Shown: positions 22,536-30,120 of the stretch, piece after piece | Layout of the letters: each line of letters starts with the position of its first letter | Numbering within the stretch: the stretch's first letter is position 1 | NCBI GenBank assembly: GCA_030372965.1 | Contig: JAUCQC010000229.1 | Location: forward strand, 1-38,879 | Direction of reading: 5' to 3' | From: a bacterium | Lineage (GTDB): Bacteria; Zhuqueibacterota; QNDG01; DTFT01 | Length of the DNA: 38,879 bases | Notes under the pieces: generated by a model | What the model was told of the DNA's origin: nothing | Seen by the model: the letters and a program-made list of their open reading frames with translations, nothing else | Database searches by the model: none | Position numbers and translations under genes: made by a program

Positions 22536-23680
22536 GGAGACTTCGGGACTGGAAATTGTGGGCCGGCGTTCTGGTCAGCGGCCTGTTCCTCTGGCTGGCC
22601 TTCCGGAAAACGGACCTCGGGGAAGTGGGCCGGGCCTTTTCGGAGGCCCGTTACGTCTGGCTCATCCCGTCCATTGCCGCGAATTTCATCGGGCTCTGGA
22701 TCCGTTGCGTCCGCTGGGGCCTGCTCCTCAGGCCCCTGGCCAAAGTCCGCATGAAGGACCTGTTTCCCTCCACGATCATCGGTTTCATGGCCAACAACCT
22801 GCTTCCGGCGCGCATCGGCGAGTTCGTGCGCGCCCTGGTGCTCGGAAGGAAGACCGGCGTCCGGGTGTCGGCCTCTTTCGCCACCATCGTCCTGGAGCGG
22901 GTGTTCGACGGCGTCACCGTGCTCCTCTTCCTGCTCGTGACGGTCGGACTGCTGGACCTGCCGTTTCCGGACTGGCTCCGCAAGGCGAGCCTGGTTTCGC
23001 TCGGGGCCGTGGCCCTGCTGCTCGTCCTGCTGGTCGCGCTGAAGGCGAAGACCGGCGTCGTGCTCGGGTTTTTCGGGACCCTGCTCGGGCCCTTTCCGCA
23101 GGCGTTCCGGAAACGGGCCCTCGGTTTTCTCGAGTCTTTCGCGGAGGGCCTGCGCATGCTGCGCGACTGGAAGTCCGTGGCCGCCGCGTCCGCGCTCTCC
23201 GTGGCGCTCTGGGTTTTTCCGGCGCTGTCCCTGCATTTCGGCGTCATGGCCGCGGGGATTCACCTGCCCCTGGCGGCCTCGGTGTTCGTGCTGGTGATCC
23301 TGTGCATCGGGGTCGCGGCGCCGTCCGCTCCCGGATTCGTCGGCACCATTCAGTTCGTGTCCGTGCTCGGGCTCGAACTGTTCGGCGTTCCCAGGCCGCA
23401 GGCATTGAGTTTTTCCATCCTCTACCACCTGAGCCAGTACATTCCGGTGACCACGCTCGGCCTGGTCTATTTCTTCTCCGAGGGGCTCTCTTTCTCAAAA
23501 ATACGGTCCGGGGAGGGGGAAGAGAGTGACGGGGTGACGGAGTATCGGAGAAACAGAGAAACGGAGAAGCGGGGAAGCGGAGAAAAAAGTGACGGAGTTA
23601 CAGAGTATCGGAGAAACGGAGAAACGGAGAAGCGGAGAAGCGGAGAAGCGGAGAAAAAGAGTGACGGGGTATCGGATTGA
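22532..23680 (+). CDS. UPF0104/AglD-like (lysylphosphatidylglycerol synthase TM region) membrane protein with repeat-encoded tail
   Basis: NFIGLWIRCVRWGLLLRPLAKVRMKDLFPSTIIGFMANNLLPARIGEFVRALVLGRKTGVRVSASFATIVLERVFDG is signature sequence; ATGA-type coupling. The last ~55 aa come from a tandem repeat. Confidence 0.9.
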   Translation: MRRLRDWKLWAGVLVSGLFLWLAFRKTDLGEVGRAFSEARYVWLIPSIAANFIGLWIRCVRWGLLLRPLAKVRMKDLFPSTIIGFMANNLLPARIGEFVRALVLGRKTGVRVSASFATIVLERVFDGVTVLLFLLVTVGLLDLPFPDWLRKASLVSLGAVALLLVLLVALKAKTGVVLGFFGTLLGPFPQAFRKRALGFLESFAEGLRMLRDWKSVAAASALSVALWVFPALSLHFGVMAAGIHLPLAASVFVLVILCIGVAAPSAPGFVGTIQFVSVLGLELFGVPRPQALSFSILYHLSQYIPVTTLGLVYFFSEGLSFSKIRSGEGEESDGVTEYRRNRETEKRGSGEKSDGVTEYRRNGETEKRRSGEAEKKSDGVSD

Positions 23681-23911: not shown

Positions 23912-25753
23912 ATGAAACTGGGTGTGATCGACATCGGCATCATCATCGGTTACCTGATTCTGACCGTGTTGATCGGCTTCATTCTGACCAAAAAGGCGTC
24001 CAAGGGACTGAATTCCTACTTTCTGGCGGACAAGGGCCTGCCGTACTGGATTCTCGGCGTGTCGAACGCCTCGGGCATGTTCGACATCACGGGCACCATG
24101 TGGCTGGTCTACATCACCTTCGTCTATGGCCTCAAGTCGGTGTTCATCCCCTGGCTGTGGCCCGTGTTCAACCAGATTTTTCTGATGGTGTTCCTCTCGA
24201 AGTGGATGCGGCGCTCGAACGTCATGACCGGGGCTGAATGGATCAACACCCGGTTCGGACACGGGAGGGGGGCGGTGTTGTCGCATCTCAGCGTGGTGGT
24301 GTTCGCCCTGGTCAGCGTGATCGGTTTCATCGCCTACGATTTCGCGGGTGTGGGCAAGTTCGCCGCCATGTTCCTGCCCTGGCAGTTCTCCGCGGACCCG
24401 GTCGTTAACGGCAACTGGTACGCCGTGGGCCTGATGCTGCTGACGTCCGTGTACGTGGTGGCGGGCGGCATGTACAGCGTGGTGGTCACGGAACTGCTCC
24501 AGTTCGTGGTCATGACCGTGTCGTGCGTGGGCGTGGGCATCGTGGCGATGGTGAGGACGTCGCCCGACGCGGTTTCCGCGGCCGTGCCCGAGGGGTGGAA
24601 GAACGTCTTCTTCGGGTGGCATCTGAACCTCGACTGGTCGAACCTGATCCAGAGCGTGAACACGAAGATCGCGGAGGACGGGTATTCTCTCTTCACCATA
24701 TTCTTCATGATGGTGCTGTTCAAGGGCATACTCGTCAGTCTGGCCGGGCCGGCGCCCAATTACGACATGCAGCGTGTGCTCGCCACCAAGAGCCCGAAAG
24801 AGGCGTCCAAGATGAGCTGGTTCGTCTCCCTCTGCCTGTTCCCAACGCGCTACCTCATGATCACGGGCATCACCCTCCTGGGGCTTGTCTTCTTCAGCCC
24901 CCAGCTCAATTCCATGGGCACCGGCATCGACTTCGAGAAGGTGCTGCCGTACGTGCTGGGGCATTTCATGCCGGCCGGGCTCCTCGGCCTCGTTCTGGCG
25001 GGCCTGCTCGCGGCGTTCATGTCCACGTTCGCGGCCACGGTCAACGCGGCCCCGGCCTACGTGGTGAACGACATCTACAAGCGCTACATCAACCCCAACG
25101 CCCCGCACCGCACCCTGATCTGGATGAGCTACGCCGTGTCGTTCGCGTTCGTCGTCATTGGCATCCTGTTTGGCCTGCACGCCAAGGACATCAACCAGGT
25201 CACGCAGTGGATCGTCTCGGCCCTGTGGGGCGGGTACACGGCGGCCAACATCCTCAAGTGGTACTGGTGGCGGTTCAACGGGTACGGGTATTTCTGGGGC
25301 ATGGCCACGGGCATCGCCGCGGCGCTGGTGCTGTCGAAGTTCCCGGGCCTCTACCTCTGGGTCTACCCGGAGATCGTGCCGAACCTGTACGCCCTGTACT
25401 CCTTCCCGGTCATCCTTTTTCTGTCGACCATCGGATGCGTCCTCGGCACGTTCCTGACCAAACCCGAGGACGACAAGATTCTGATGCAGTTCTACAAGCA
25501 GGTGCGGCCGTGGGGTTTCTGGAAACCCATCCACGACAAGGTCGTGAAGGCCGACCCGAAATTCAAGTCGGACGCGAACTTCAAGCGCGATGCCTTCAAT
25601 GTCGCGGTGGGCATTGTCTGGCAGACCTCGCTGATCCTGATCCCGGTGTACCTGGTGATCCGCAGCAGGGCGCCCTTCTTCGAGGCCGTCGCCGTGCTCG
25701 TCATCACATCCCTGATCCTGAAGAAGACCTGGTGGAACAAGCTCTCGGACTGA
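23912..25753 (+). CDS. Sodium:solute symporter (SSS family) transporter
   Basis: LGVIDIGIIIGYLILTVLIGFILTKKASKGLNSYFLADKGLPYWILGVSNASGMFDITGTMW; GRGAVLSHLSVVVFALVSVIGFIAYDFAGVGKFA; ~14 TM pattern. Confidence 0.93.
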   Translation: MKLGVIDIGIIIGYLILTVLIGFILTKKASKGLNSYFLADKGLPYWILGVSNASGMFDITGTMWLVYITFVYGLKSVFIPWLWPVFNQIFLMVFLSKWMRRSNVMTGAEWINTRFGHGRGAVLSHLSVVVFALVSVIGFIAYDFAGVGKFAAMFLPWQFSADPVVNGNWYAVGLMLLTSVYVVAGGMYSVVVTELLQFVVMTVSCVGVGIVAMVRTSPDAVSAAVPEGWKNVFFGWHLNLDWSNLIQSVNTKIAEDGYSLFTIFFMMVLFKGILVSLAGPAPNYDMQRVLATKSPKEASKMSWFVSLCLFPTRYLMITGITLLGLVFFSPQLNSMGTGIDFEKVLPYVLGHFMPAGLLGLVLAGLLAAFMSTFAATVNAAPAYVVNDIYKRYINPNAPHRTLIWMSYAVSFAFVVIGILFGLHAKDINQVTQWIVSALWGGYTAANILKWYWWRFNGYGYFWGMATGIAAALVLSKFPGLYLWVYPEIVPNLYALYSFPVILFLSTIGCVLGTFLTKPEDDKILMQFYKQVRPWGFWKPIHDKVVKADPKFKSDANFKRDAFNVAVGIVWQTSLILIPVYLVIRSRAPFFEAVAVLVITSLILKKTWWNKLSD

Positions 25754-25786: not shown

Positions 25787-26977
25787 ATGAATCGAAAACA
25801 GTTCAAACGGGCGGTGGCCGCCCTCCGGTACAGGCACGAGACCCTGATCCTTCGCCGCAACCCGCCCCTGGCCGGCGGGAACGGCGTGTTCAGGCGGCAC
25901 AAATACCCGGTGCTCACCGCGGAACACACACCGCTGTTCTGGCGGTATGATTTCGACTTCGAGCGCAACCCCCATCTCATGGAGCGCCTGGGCGTCAACG
26001 CTGCGTTCAACTCGGGCGCGGTCGAATTTGACGGCAGGATCGCGCTCGTGGCGCGCGTCGAGGGCGCGGACCGCAAGTCGTTCTTCGCGGTCGCGGAAAG
26101 CCCGAACGGCATTGACCGGTTCCGGTTCAGGGACTATCCGATCACGATGCCCGAAACGGACGACCCGGACGTCAATGTGTACGACATGCGGGTGACCCGG
26201 CACGAGGACGGCTGGATTTACGGTGTGTTCTGCACCGAGCGCAGGGACCCGAAGGCGTCTCCCGGAGACCAGTCGTCCGCGGTCGCCCAGGCGGGCATCG
26301 CGCGGACGCGGGACCTGGAGCGCTGGGAGCGGCTCGACGACCTGAAGAGCCCGTCTCCCCAGCAGAGGAACGTCGTTCTGCACCCGGAATTCGTTGGCGG
26401 CAAGTACGCGTTCTACACGCGGCCCATGGACGAATTCATCAGCACCGGGTCGGGCGGCGGCATCGGATTCGGCCTGTCGGACTCCATCGAGCACGCGGTC
26501 ATCCGCGAAGAGACCATCATCGACCCGAAGCTCTACCACACGGTCAACGAGGTCAAGAACGGACAGGGGCCCGCGCCGATCAAAACTTCCGAGGGCTGGC
26601 TGCACCTGGCGCACGGCGTGCGGAACACGGCCGCGGGGCTCCGGTACGTGCTGTATTTGCTGATGACGGACCTGAACGATCTCACGAAAGTCATCCGCAG
26701 GCCCGGCGGGTATTTTCTCGCGCCGGAGGGAGAGGAGCGGGTGGGGGACGTGTCGAACGTGGTGTTCAGCAACGGGTGGGTGGCGAAGGCGGACGGACGG
26801 GTGTTCATCTATTACGGGTCGTCAGACACCCGCACGCACGTCGCAACGACCACGGTGGAAAAGCTTTTGGACTACTGCCGCAACACGCCCCCGGATCCCC
26901 TGCGCTCCGCGGCCTGCGTCAGCCAGCGGAACGAGATGATTCGCAGGAACCTCGAGATTCTCAAAAAGAAACGGTAG
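25787..26977 (+). CDS. GH130 family, 4-O-beta-D-mannosyl-D-glucose phosphorylase-like
   Basis: [114 protein letters not shown] match the GH130 subfamily 1 pattern. Confidence 0.92.
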
Positions 26978-27253: not shown

Positions 27254-27589
27254 TTGCCGCTCGATGTCAGAGAATTCCATCATATATTCGGATTGAACCG
27301 GTCCGGAACGAGAGCCTTTTCCGCTTCGATTCCTTCCGCCGGCGAGAGTTCTCGCCTTCTCCTGTCTTTAAGAAATGCCTTTTCTTTCGGTGCGGGTCGG
27401 CCGGGCATCGCGCGTTTTTATGTCGACACGCTCACGGTAAGATGGATCGGGGGTAAGTGGGACCAGGGGATTAAGTATTGTGATGTTAATTCTCTGGGAT
27501 TGGAGAAAAAGAATAGTCGGATAATTCCACTAATAGGAAAACTTTTTTCCTACTATTGGAAAATGGTTGGATCGCGGGGTTCCATCTAA
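27254..27589 (+). CDS. Uncertain ORF (111 aa), possible cassette-encoded product
   Basis: TTG-initiated ORF downstream of a promoter-like sequence, stopping 7 nt before attC-like site A; no recognisable domain. Confidence 0.2.
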   Translation: MPLDVREFHHIFGLNRSGTRAFSASIPSAGESSRLLLSLRNAFSFGAGRPGIARFYVDTLTVRWIGGKWDQGIKYCDVNSLGLEKKNSRIIPLIGKLFSYYWKMVGSRGSI

Positions 27590-27596
27590 TAATAAG

Positions 27597-27702
27597 TTAG
27601 CCGAACCCGCGCATTGAGCGGACGGAAACCTAATTTGCATTGGCTTCTTTGATTTAATGCAAGCCGATGTCTAACGTTGCCCGCCGCTCAATCGCGTTAG
27701 CC
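27597..27702 (+). other. attC-like recombination site A
   Basis: Bounded by TTAGCC at 27597 and 27697. CGCGCATTGAGCGG (27608-27621) pairs with CCGCTCAATCGCG (27684-27696) with one extrahelical C. R'-like box GTTAGCC at 27696-27702. Confidence 0.7.
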
Positions 27703-27716
27703 AATTTAAAAATGAC

Positions 27717-27760
27717 TTGATTATTAACAGAATTATTTATAAACTATTGTACAATTGTAC
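27717..27760 (+). promoter_or_regulatory. Candidate toxin-antitoxin promoter and operator palindrome
   Basis: TTGATT (27717-27722), 17 nt, TAAACT (27740-27745); perfect 12-bp palindrome GTACAATTGTAC at 27749-27760 over the predicted start site. Confidence 0.5.
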
Positions 27761-27780
27761 GAGTTATCGAGAGAGTTAAT

Positions 27781-28173
27781 GTGAAAATTGTAATCGACAC
27801 TTCGGCTATAATTTCAGTAATAACAAATGAGAAGAATAGAAATGCACTAATAAAAATTACGAAGGGAGAATCAATAATTGCCCCCAACTCAATGCACTTT
27901 GAGATAGGAAATGCTTTTTCAGCTATGTTAAAGCGTAATAGAATTTCTATTGATAATGCTTTATTGGCAATAAAATCTTATGAAAAGATACCAATTCAAT
28001 TCTGTCCCATAGATCTCGAAAAATCGATAAAAATATCCTCGAAACTAAATATATATGCTTATGATGCATATTTTATCGAGTGCGCAGAAAGAAACAGATC
28101 GCCAATATTATCATTGGATCAGGGGATGATTGATGCTGCAAAATCATACGGTATAAAAATAATTGAGGTTTGA
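27781..28173 (+). CDS. vapC: PIN-domain (VapC-like) toxin
   Basis: GTG start; MKIVIDTSAIISVIT N-terminal Asp, FEIGNAF, AYDAYFIECAERNRSPILSLDQGM acidic PIN motifs. Confidence 0.85.
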   Translation: MKIVIDTSAIISVITNEKNRNALIKITKGESIIAPNSMHFEIGNAFSAMLKRNRISIDNALLAIKSYEKIPIQFCPIDLEKSIKISSKLNIYAYDAYFIECAERNRSPILSLDQGMIDAAKSYGIKIIEV

Positions 28174-28174
28174 A

Positions 28175-28393
28175 ATGACCACTTTTACCTATTCAAAGGC
28201 ACGACAGAATTTCTCGGATGTTTTGGACCAAGCCTCCAAGAAAGGGGAAATTTTTATCAAACGAAGAGATGGATCTATATTTGTGATAAAACCACTTACA
28301 AAAACAGTATCACCCCTTGATGTCTCATCAGTTGATATCAATATCTCGAAGCGTGAAATTGTTGAATTAATTAGAGAGATACGTGAACGATAG
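28175..28393 (+). CDS. Phd/YefM-type antitoxin
   Basis: TTFTYSKARQNFSDVLDQASKKGEIFIKRRDGSIFVIKPL matches the Phd/YefM N-terminal fold; starts 1 nt after the toxin stop. Confidence 0.82.
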   Translation: MTTFTYSKARQNFSDVLDQASKKGEIFIKRRDGSIFVIKPLTKTVSPLDVSSVDINISKREIVELIREIRER

Positions 28394-28400
28394 TTAATTT

Positions 28401-28506
28401 TTAGCCAACCCTGTCATTCACGGGACGGTGCTGCTCAGTATTAATTCTCTGAACGCTGTGCAAGCCGTAAATGATGTCGCCCGCCCGTGATGACCCATCC
28501 TTAGCC
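28401..28506 (+). other. attC-like recombination site B
   Basis: Bounded by TTAGCC at 28401 and 28501 (same 100-bp offset as site A). GTCATTCACGGG (28413-28424) pairs with CCCGTGATGAC (28484-28494) with one extrahelical T. Shares TGCAAGCCG...TG(T)CGCCCGCC with site A. Confidence 0.68.
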
Positions 28507-28550
28507 GACAATCGATCCAAGACGGATAGAGTCATGAAGGAGGAATATTC

Positions 28551-28991
28551 ATGAAATGGCGTTTTATCATGTCCGGTTTTGCCACTTCTGCAATCAATCT
28601 ATGCCTCAACGCTTTCGCGTACAAAGTCTTATTAAAAGACTTTTATCATTCCCATTCCGCCATATCAGAAGAATGCATGAGACAGCTTCACCGACAACCG
28701 AACGAGTTAATCGTATGGGCGATGGTAATCACTTCATTGTCAATGGGATTTCTGATCACAATGATAATGAAATGGTCAGGCGCGAATGATTTTATGTCAG
28801 GGTTAAAAAAAGGGCTTTTAACCGCGCTTCTTTTCTGGGGCTCTGTCAACTTTGGATTATACGCCTCGTCGAACTTTTTTTCTCAATCCACGGTATTTGT
28901 TGATTATGCCTGCAGCGTAAGCGCAATGACAGTTTCCGCGGCTTTTTCAGCCTGGATGTTGGGCGGAAGAAGGGATGTATCGAAAAGTTAA
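28551..28991 (+). CDS. Small multi-TM membrane protein (about 4 TM), unknown function
   Basis: Strong SD AAGGAGG upstream of ATG 28551; hydrophobic segments; lies between attC-like sites B and C. Confidence 0.7.
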   Translation: MKWRFIMSGFATSAINLCLNAFAYKVLLKDFYHSHSAISEECMRQLHRQPNELIVWAMVITSLSMGFLITMIMKWSGANDFMSGLKKGLLTALLFWGSVNFGLYASSNFFSQSTVFVDYACSVSAMTVSAAFSAWMLGGRRDVSKS

Positions 28992-28999
28992 GTGTCGCC

Positions 29000-29105
29000 C
29001 CAGCTGACCCGTTCATCAAACGGACTGTGCCCTGATCGGTTGTGACTTCCGAAAGACTGTGCGATCGGTAACCGATGCCGCCCGACCAGTGATCAACCCC
29101 GTTCA
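29000..29105 (+). other. Degenerate attC-like site C
   Basis: Aligns with site B over its length (AGCTGACCCG..TTCATCAAACGGAC..CTGTGCGATCGGTAACCGATGCCGCCCGACCAGTGATCAAC vs AGCCAACCC..GTCATTCACGGGAC..CTGTGCAAGCCGTAAATGATGTCGCCCGCCCGTGATGAC); boundary TTAGCC boxes are lost. Confidence 0.5.
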
Positions 29106-29151
29106 TTCCCGTGGTTTGACTATCAATCAAAATACAACAGGAGAAGAAGAC

Positions 29152-30120
29152 ATGAGAAAAATCCCGAATCGTTCAACCCGGCGAACAATCGCGGGGGCAG
29201 GCCATTCCCGTTCGGCAGCCGCTGTTTTCGCGTTGGCCGCCGCGCTCGCGTCCCAGGCCCCGGCGCAGAACGACCGGATGACACCCATCGAAACGCCTTC
29301 GCAGCCGAATGCGATCGAGATCGGCACCGGTCCGCTGCCCGGCGCGACGAACCCGGAGTCGTGGCACATGCAGTACGGCAGTCATTTCGCGAGAAACGTC
29401 ACGGTGGCGACGCTGACCCCGTTTCTTCCGGATCCCGCCAAGGCGAGCGGCGCCGCGGTTGTCGTCGCGCCCGGCGGCGGTTTCATGACCCTGTCCATGG
29501 AAAATGAAGGCTGGAACGTCGCCCGCGGCCTGGCGGAAAAGGGCGTCGCCGCGTTTGTCCTCAAATACCGCCTGAACCAGACACCGGCGGACATGCCGGC
29601 GTTCGAAAAATCCATGCGGGACATGTTCTCTTCCGTGGCGAGGCCGACGAGACCCGACTCCGCCAGGAGAATGGCCGGTCTTGGACCGCAGATCGCGGAC
29701 GCCCGGGCTGCGTTCGCGCTTATCCGGAAACGTTCCGCCGAGTGGCATGTCGACCCCGACCGGATCGGCATGGTCGGCTTTTCCGCGGGCGCGGGGCTGA
29801 CCATGGCAACCGCGCTCGCGGGAGAGGACGCGAAGCCCGCATTCATCGGCAACATCTACGGCCCTCTCGCGGCGGTCACGGTGCCGGCAGACGCGCCGCC
29901 GCTGTTCATCGCCCTGGCCGCGGACGACCCCTTCTTCGCGAACGGCGGCTACGGGCTCATCGACAGTTGGAAAGCCGCGAAGCGCCCAGTTGAATTCCAT
30001 CTCTATGAACAGGGCGGCCACGGCTTCGGGATGTACCCGAAGGAAACGACGAGCACCGGTTGGTTCGACGCCTTCGTGCGCTGGCTCGGAATGCACGGCA
30101 TGCTGAAGCCGAAAGGATGA
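29152..30120 (+). CDS. Secreted alpha/beta hydrolase (esterase-like)
   Basis: VVVAPGGGFMTLSMENEGWNVARGLAEKGVAAFVLKYRL, nucleophile elbow GFSAGAG, acid DDPFF, His GGHGFGMYP; N-terminal signal-peptide-like region. Confidence 0.88.
   Translation: MRKIPNRSTRRTIAGAGHSRSAAAVFALAAALASQAPAQNDRMTPIETPSQPNAIEIGTGPLPGATNPESWHMQYGSHFARNVTVATLTPFLPDPAKASGAAVVVAPGGGFMTLSMENEGWNVARGLAEKGVAAFVLKYRLNQTPADMPAFEKSMRDMFSSVARPTRPDSARRMAGLGPQIADARAAFALIRKRSAEWHVDPDRIGMVGFSAGAGLTMATALAGEDAKPAFIGNIYGPLAAVTVPADAPPLFIALAADDPFFANGGYGLIDSWKAAKRPVEFHLYEQGGHGFGMYPKETTSTGWFDAFVRWLGMHGMLKPKG

Follow-up and report, generated by a model that had tools for sequence, protein, structure and literature searches.

Organization of the locus

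The window analyzed here is the whole 38,879-nucleotide contig JAUCQC010000229.1 (C229) of a bacterial metagenome-assembled genome (MAG; G000, GCA_030372965.1) of 3.28 Mb in 304 contigs, 84.67% complete, which belongs to a phylum (Zhuqueibacterota) whose other members carry the label candidate division KSB1. Between positions 27497 and 29107 it holds three gene cassettes with their attC recombination sites, preceded by an attI region, and no gene for an integron integrase (intI). An earlier note on this DNA, made from the sequence alone, had remarked on the missing integrase and read the region as a cluster of attC sites lacking an integron integrase (CALIN), in which two sites, A and B, bracket a toxin-antitoxin pair and a membrane protein. 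Comparison with a genome of the same genus (G001; JAFGAX01, isolate Zod_maxbin.0504) suggests that the region is what remains of a chromosomal integron. The features of the array, all on the forward strand, are as follows.

27278-27496, +: decayed stretch in place of the G001 intI and 115-amino-acid open reading frame (ORF); G001 homology is interrupted from 27277 to about 27499
27497-27602, +: retained attI region, with two iterons and the crossover GTTAGCC at 27596-27602; homologous to G001 sequence 3' of intI
27597-27696, +: cassette 1, 100 bp, without an ORF, consisting of attC only
27600-27702, +: attC site A; R'' GCCGAAC, R' GTTAGCC; top match of a blind scanner in the window
27697-28500, +: cassette 2, toxin-antitoxin, 804 bp, bounded by the crossover points of A and B
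27781-28173, +: predicted PIN-domain toxin, 130 amino acids (PF01850, E 3.9e-9, above cut-off)
28175-28393, +: predicted Phd/YefM-type antitoxin, 72 amino acids (PF02604, E 8.9e-9, above cut-off)
28403-28506, +: attC site B; R'' AGCCAAC, R' decayed to CTTAGCC; 93.6 bits with the R1 model, of which it is a training member
28501-29101, +: cassette 3, membrane protein, 601 bp, bounded by the crossover points of B and C
28551-28991, +: predicted membrane protein, 146 amino acids; no Pfam family above cut-off (DUF1761, 18.5 bits against a cut-off of 31)
29002-29107, +: attC site C, degenerate, at the array end, aligned to A, B and D (below); R'' AGCTGAC, R' GTTCATT; 91.7 bits with the R1 model, also a training member

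The crossover point at both 27596 and 27696 reads G^TTAGCC, that at 28500 C^TTAGCC and that at 29101 G^TTCATT. The guanine-cytosine (GC) content of the array segment is 34 to 43%, compared with 60 to 65% in the flanking contig, and rises again to 62 to 66% past the array. The low GC content of the segments and their lengths between the sites (698 and 493 bp) agree with the earlier description. A defence role of the cassettes was considered and set aside, as PADLOC gave only weak matches.

attC sites of the array

In integrons, the integrase inserts a cassette by recombination between attI and the bottom strand of attC in its folded form. Sites A and B were correctly recognized in the earlier note, but their number was underestimated: aligning them with the 29.0-kb region revealed the degenerate third copy, C, and a DNA search of the same MAG located a fourth, on contig C48, here called D, which is 75% identical to B (E 2e-9). 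The inverted repeats that had been described in A and B are real. The free energy of the site A fold (-39.6, z score -4.35) was reached by none of 1000 dinucleotide shuffles; site B folds more weakly (z score -1.97, reached by 37 of 1000), and site D folds strongly (z score -4.31).

Each 5' arm had been credited with a single extrahelical base. We find two, namely C at +5 and A at +15 nucleotides after AAC in site A, and T at +8 and A at +15 in site B, which has a further T at +19. None of the 1000 shuffles of A carried both bulges, and the same holds for B. Six attC sites that adjoin intI, each in a different genome of the phylum, have bulges at +7 to +9 and +14 to +16, the second always being an A; A and B thus fold into an imperfect hairpin in which one arm has extrahelical bases at a fixed distance from the box. 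The best fold of site D has the T bulge at +19 only, and that of site C has no bulge.

Judged against the consensus boxes RYYYAAC (R'') and GTTRRRY (R'), sites A and D (AGCTAAC and GTTGAGT in the latter) have both AAC and GTT, with outer letters partly off consensus, while B keeps AAC with CTTAGCC as R', and C has GAC and keeps GTTCATT. As read from these sequences, the sites are drifting: GTT is gone from the R' box of B, and C no longer has AAC in its R'' box or a stem. The internal TGYCGCCCGCC block reported for A and B is indeed shared, although in a looser form, since A reads GTTGCCCGCC.

As for the arms themselves, their divergence under kept complementarity, which the earlier note took as a hallmark of attC, is borne out by covariation across six sites (the four of the MAG and two homologues in relatives): in an alignment fitted to the model, 10 stem pairs changed on both sides, compared with 4.7±1.6 after shuffling. 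The covariation score was reached in none of 500 shuffles, and sliding controls were clearly lower. Structure is therefore kept while the sequence varies. A search of Rfam gave no match. The pattern GATGNCGCCCG was also tried over the MAG and rejected; it gave 69 matches, and the 15 plus-strand contexts that were read were coding noise.

TTAGCC occurs four times in the window (27597, 27697, 28401 and 28501), always on the plus strand and never as its reverse complement, in two pairs whose members lie exactly 100 bp apart, as had been claimed. Two palindromic elements flanked by the same direct repeat at the same spacing could point to insertions resembling miniature inverted-repeat transposable elements (MITEs) or repetitive extragenic palindromes, with 6-bp TTAGCC target duplications and no relation to integrons. 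Yet the statement that both sites start and end with TTAGCC holds only for the letters: in A, the first TTAGCC is part of the attI crossover at 27596-27602 and not of the attC site, and in B it has another cause, its overlap with the R'' box AGCCAAC. Sites C and D have no TTAGCC repeat; across its 3.28 Mb the MAG has no more than four copies, each of which lies at the boundary of a low-GC gene unit; the bulge geometry is that of attC; and a homologous site in a relative adjoins intI. The dispersed copies, target-site duplications and terminal inverted repeats expected of MITEs were not found as a set, and the probability of such an origin is negligible.

Synteny with an intact integron and retention of attI

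The genes flanking the array, again on the forward strand, are listed below.

23912-25753, +: sodium:solute symporter-like gene, the conserved upstream flank
25787-26977, +: GH130 glycosidase/phosphorylase (PF04041, E 4e-29), the last chromosomal gene before the integron in both the window and G001
29152-30120, +: alpha/beta hydrolase (PF07859/PF20434), the first high-GC chromosomal gene past the array

In G001 (locus L092), the symporter and GH130 genes are also present, and next come a 324-amino-acid integron integrase, an ORF of 115 amino acids (348 bp) and about 130 bp up to the contig end. The integrase gene is intact (975 bp), and its product scores 443 bits against a TIGR02249 cut-off of 265. 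The upstream homology spans 3.6 kb, comprising the symporter and GH130 genes, with 86% DNA identity (G001 L092:6749-10374), and stops at 27277. It resumes at about 27499 and continues to 27599, aligned with L092:12021-12148, with a score of 52 that none of 300 shuffles reached (shuffle maximum 41). The stretch of about 220 bp between both homologous segments has no significant similarity to G001.

The resumed homology corresponds to attI. The G001 attI region ends with CTAATAATAAgGTTA (contig-end sequence CATACTAATAATAAGGTTA), and its counterpart in the window reads CTAATAATAAGTTAGCC. Two iterons precede the crossover, at 27525-27541 (TTCCACTAATAGGAAAA) and 27546-27563 (TTTCCTACTATTGGAAAA). 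Palindromic AT-rich iterons (about TTTTCTAATAATAGAAAA, in 1 to 5 copies) were also seen just before the first GTTA crossover, 3' of intI, in several integrons of the phylum (loci L107, L105, L102, L106 and L109). These iterons may be IntI-binding or regulator sites of attI. Of the parts of a complete integron, then, the window appears by homology to keep attI, and intI is absent from it and present at the same locus of G001. A weak trace of the C terminus of the 115-amino-acid ORF (GGKWD...LGLEKK...RII) at 27437-27511 is suggestive (tblastn E 0.002 in a 500-bp search); a hidden Markov model (HMM) of this accessory ORF gave no significant match on the window.

Apart from the array, short repeats of about 8 bp lie ahead of the symporter gene (23579-23646), in a dip of GC content that is rich in G, and match a tract of repeated CGGAGTAA units found in G001 at the corresponding place.

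Absence of the integrase and competing explanations

A TIGR02249 search of the 84.7%-complete MAG gave no intI; it returned only two XerC/D-like recombinases, both below the cut-off. No intI fragment was found on any other contig of the bin. In this regard, the presence of at least two clustered attC sites (A, B and the degenerate C within 1.5 kb) and of no integron integrase nearby or in the assembly agrees with the definition of a CALIN given with IntegronFinder (PMC9024848). Barring misassembly, the conclusion that the ancestral place holds no intI is well supported. The CALIN label proposed in the earlier note is also supported, by the attC geometry of A and B, by the kinship of C and D with them as one family, by a homologous site just 3' of intI in a genome of the same order and by synteny together with attI. 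More exactly, the sequences describe an integrase-less remnant of a chromosomal integron, because the locus is syntenic to a complete integron in the same genus and attI has been retained. Moreover, integrons of the phylum carry their arrays 3' of intI and in its orientation, as do those of Treponema, in which intI and cassettes share one orientation (PMC3607928); the gene order of the window is therefore that expected after removal of intI.

CALINs away from an integron locus are common, for example in Xanthomonas (PMC12444791), and the cassettes could have been inserted by a trans-acting integrase at an unrelated genomic site that never lost an intI. A further array exists in this genome: at the C48 end (L056 3535-4903), a TPR-repeat protein cassette runs from a contig-end GTTAGCT to site D, so the MAG contains at least one more array, which continues off the contig. 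A search for the C48 flank in G001 matched only an AraC-type gene and was uninformative. However, the array in the window occupies the integron locus of G001, and the iteron-bearing attI before its first cassette matches G001 sequence beyond intI and the 115-amino-acid ORF. Ectopic insertion would not bring attI along, which makes this explanation very improbable.

An assembly or binning artefact would require that the stretch with intI and the accessory ORF was dropped at a repeat, the real chromosome keeping the integrase. Arrays are indeed where integron contigs of the phylum break, many of those with intI ending within a few hundred bases, and CALIN counts are inflated by draft genomes (PMC9024848). 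Yet simple repeat collapse would not create the roughly 220 bp of nonhomologous sequence between the homologous flanks, and the integrase left no fragment elsewhere in the bin. We regard such an artefact as improbable.

We thus place at about 0.9 the probability that 27497-29107 represents the remains of a chromosomal integron, from which the integrase is gone together with almost the whole accessory ORF, attI and three cassettes being left. Several observations weigh against this interpretation. The source is an incomplete MAG in 304 contigs, so an intI may exist elsewhere in the organism, and its second array runs off the end of C48. Neither tblastn nor HMM searches recognized an intI remnant at 27278-27496. 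The G001 contig ends 4 to 5 bases into the crossover, leaving its cassettes unseen, and the downstream flank of the window was not found in G001. Site C alone forms no significant hairpin (z score +0.56 against dinucleotide shuffles), the covariation count comes from a model-fitted alignment, and our blind home-made attC structure scanner, which ranked site A first in the window, has no window-wide significance, the score of A being reached in 16 of 60 shuffled windows.

Related sites in other genomes

A covariance model of the four sites of the MAG was run over 12 genomes, its own and 11 relatives. At E ≤ 0.1 it recovered only these four sites and three others. One of the latter, in the same-order genome G004, sits 3' of a truncated intI at a distance of 315 bp, and the cassette that comes after it encodes a Phd/YefM antitoxin and a PIN protein. 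This intI (L198 4030-4808, G004:C35) looks 5'-truncated or frameshifted, with two partial ORFs, and may be an intermediate stage of integrase decay. The second site, in G007 (L199, G007:C110, 1-1310), follows a cupin cassette that is itself 3' of an amidohydrolase gene similar to the one that precedes the integron in G004. The G007 genome yielded no intI, and its locus is possibly a second integrase-less integron. The third site, in G003, is weak (E 0.02), yet it has R'' and R' boxes.

A protein family associated with intI

The accessory ORF of G001 (L092:11659-12003) belongs to a family of proteins of about 115 amino acids, without a family name, found beside intI in many KSB1-type integrons, in most cases between it and attI (further loci L118-L122, L125 and L126). 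These proteins share the motif PGxPGTKKW..YGDxLVCVRY..KTVEL..NK..YGE..LVKAAGGKWN..LWELPY..LGLE. Among 83 genomes of the phylum, 41 have IntI (E ≤ 1e-60) and 30 have the protein; judged from coordinates, about 20 of its 42 matches adjoin intI. MAGs labelled Neomarinimicrobiota and Spirochaetes have the protein as well, again next to intI. It has no match in Pfam, NCBIfam or PADLOC. Its predicted structure is confident (pLDDT 91, pTM 0.50), and the model found no PDB match below E 0.25.

Proposed integrase loss and its significance

The ancestral order would have been GH130, intI, the 115-amino-acid ORF, attI and cassettes, in one orientation throughout. While the integrase was present, IntI would have joined the folded bottom strand of each attC to attI at G^TTAGCC, by analogy with integrons in general and in keeping with the anatomy of the sites. 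Deletion and decay in this lineage would then have removed the integrase along with almost the entire accessory ORF. Without an integrase in cis, the cassettes would now be fixed cargo and their attC sites free to drift, although they may still be movable if an integrase were supplied in trans.

The locus is an integrase-less remnant of an already known kind, with precedents in Treponema phagedenis and Xanthomonas. CALINs have been proposed to be degraded integrons (PMC9024848); here, an origin by integrase loss is supported directly, because attI is kept and a genome of the same genus carries an intact counterpart at this locus. The T. phagedenis remnant, with attC and cassette genes but no intI, is syntenic to the integron of sister species (PMC3607928), and so resembles our case in its syntenic integrase loss and retained cassettes. 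It differs in that ours comes from another phylum and has a short three-cassette array, and in that an accessory ORF between intI and attI has also been lost. In Xanthomonas, intI has been repeatedly inactivated or lost at ilvD with the arrays retained (PMC12444791), which is likewise a lineage-specific loss at a fixed chromosomal locus; whereas that case rests on many genomes, ours compares one MAG with one intI-bearing genome, with G007 as a second possible case. In the set of papers searched, none linked integrons with KSB1; the four that contain both words concern, by their titles, Klebsiella or plasmids.

Together, G001 with intI and the window without it provide a clear before-and-after pair for integron decay in an uncultured phylum, and indicate that attI and attC can outlast the integrase. 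Tentatively, and at somewhat less than even odds, integrons of this phylum may have a third conserved part, the protein of about 115 amino acids, active in recombination or its control, in which case the window would be a natural knock-out of the integrase and accessory gene. The window also exposes an integron-linked protein family, without a Pfam or NCBIfam match, that is directly testable.
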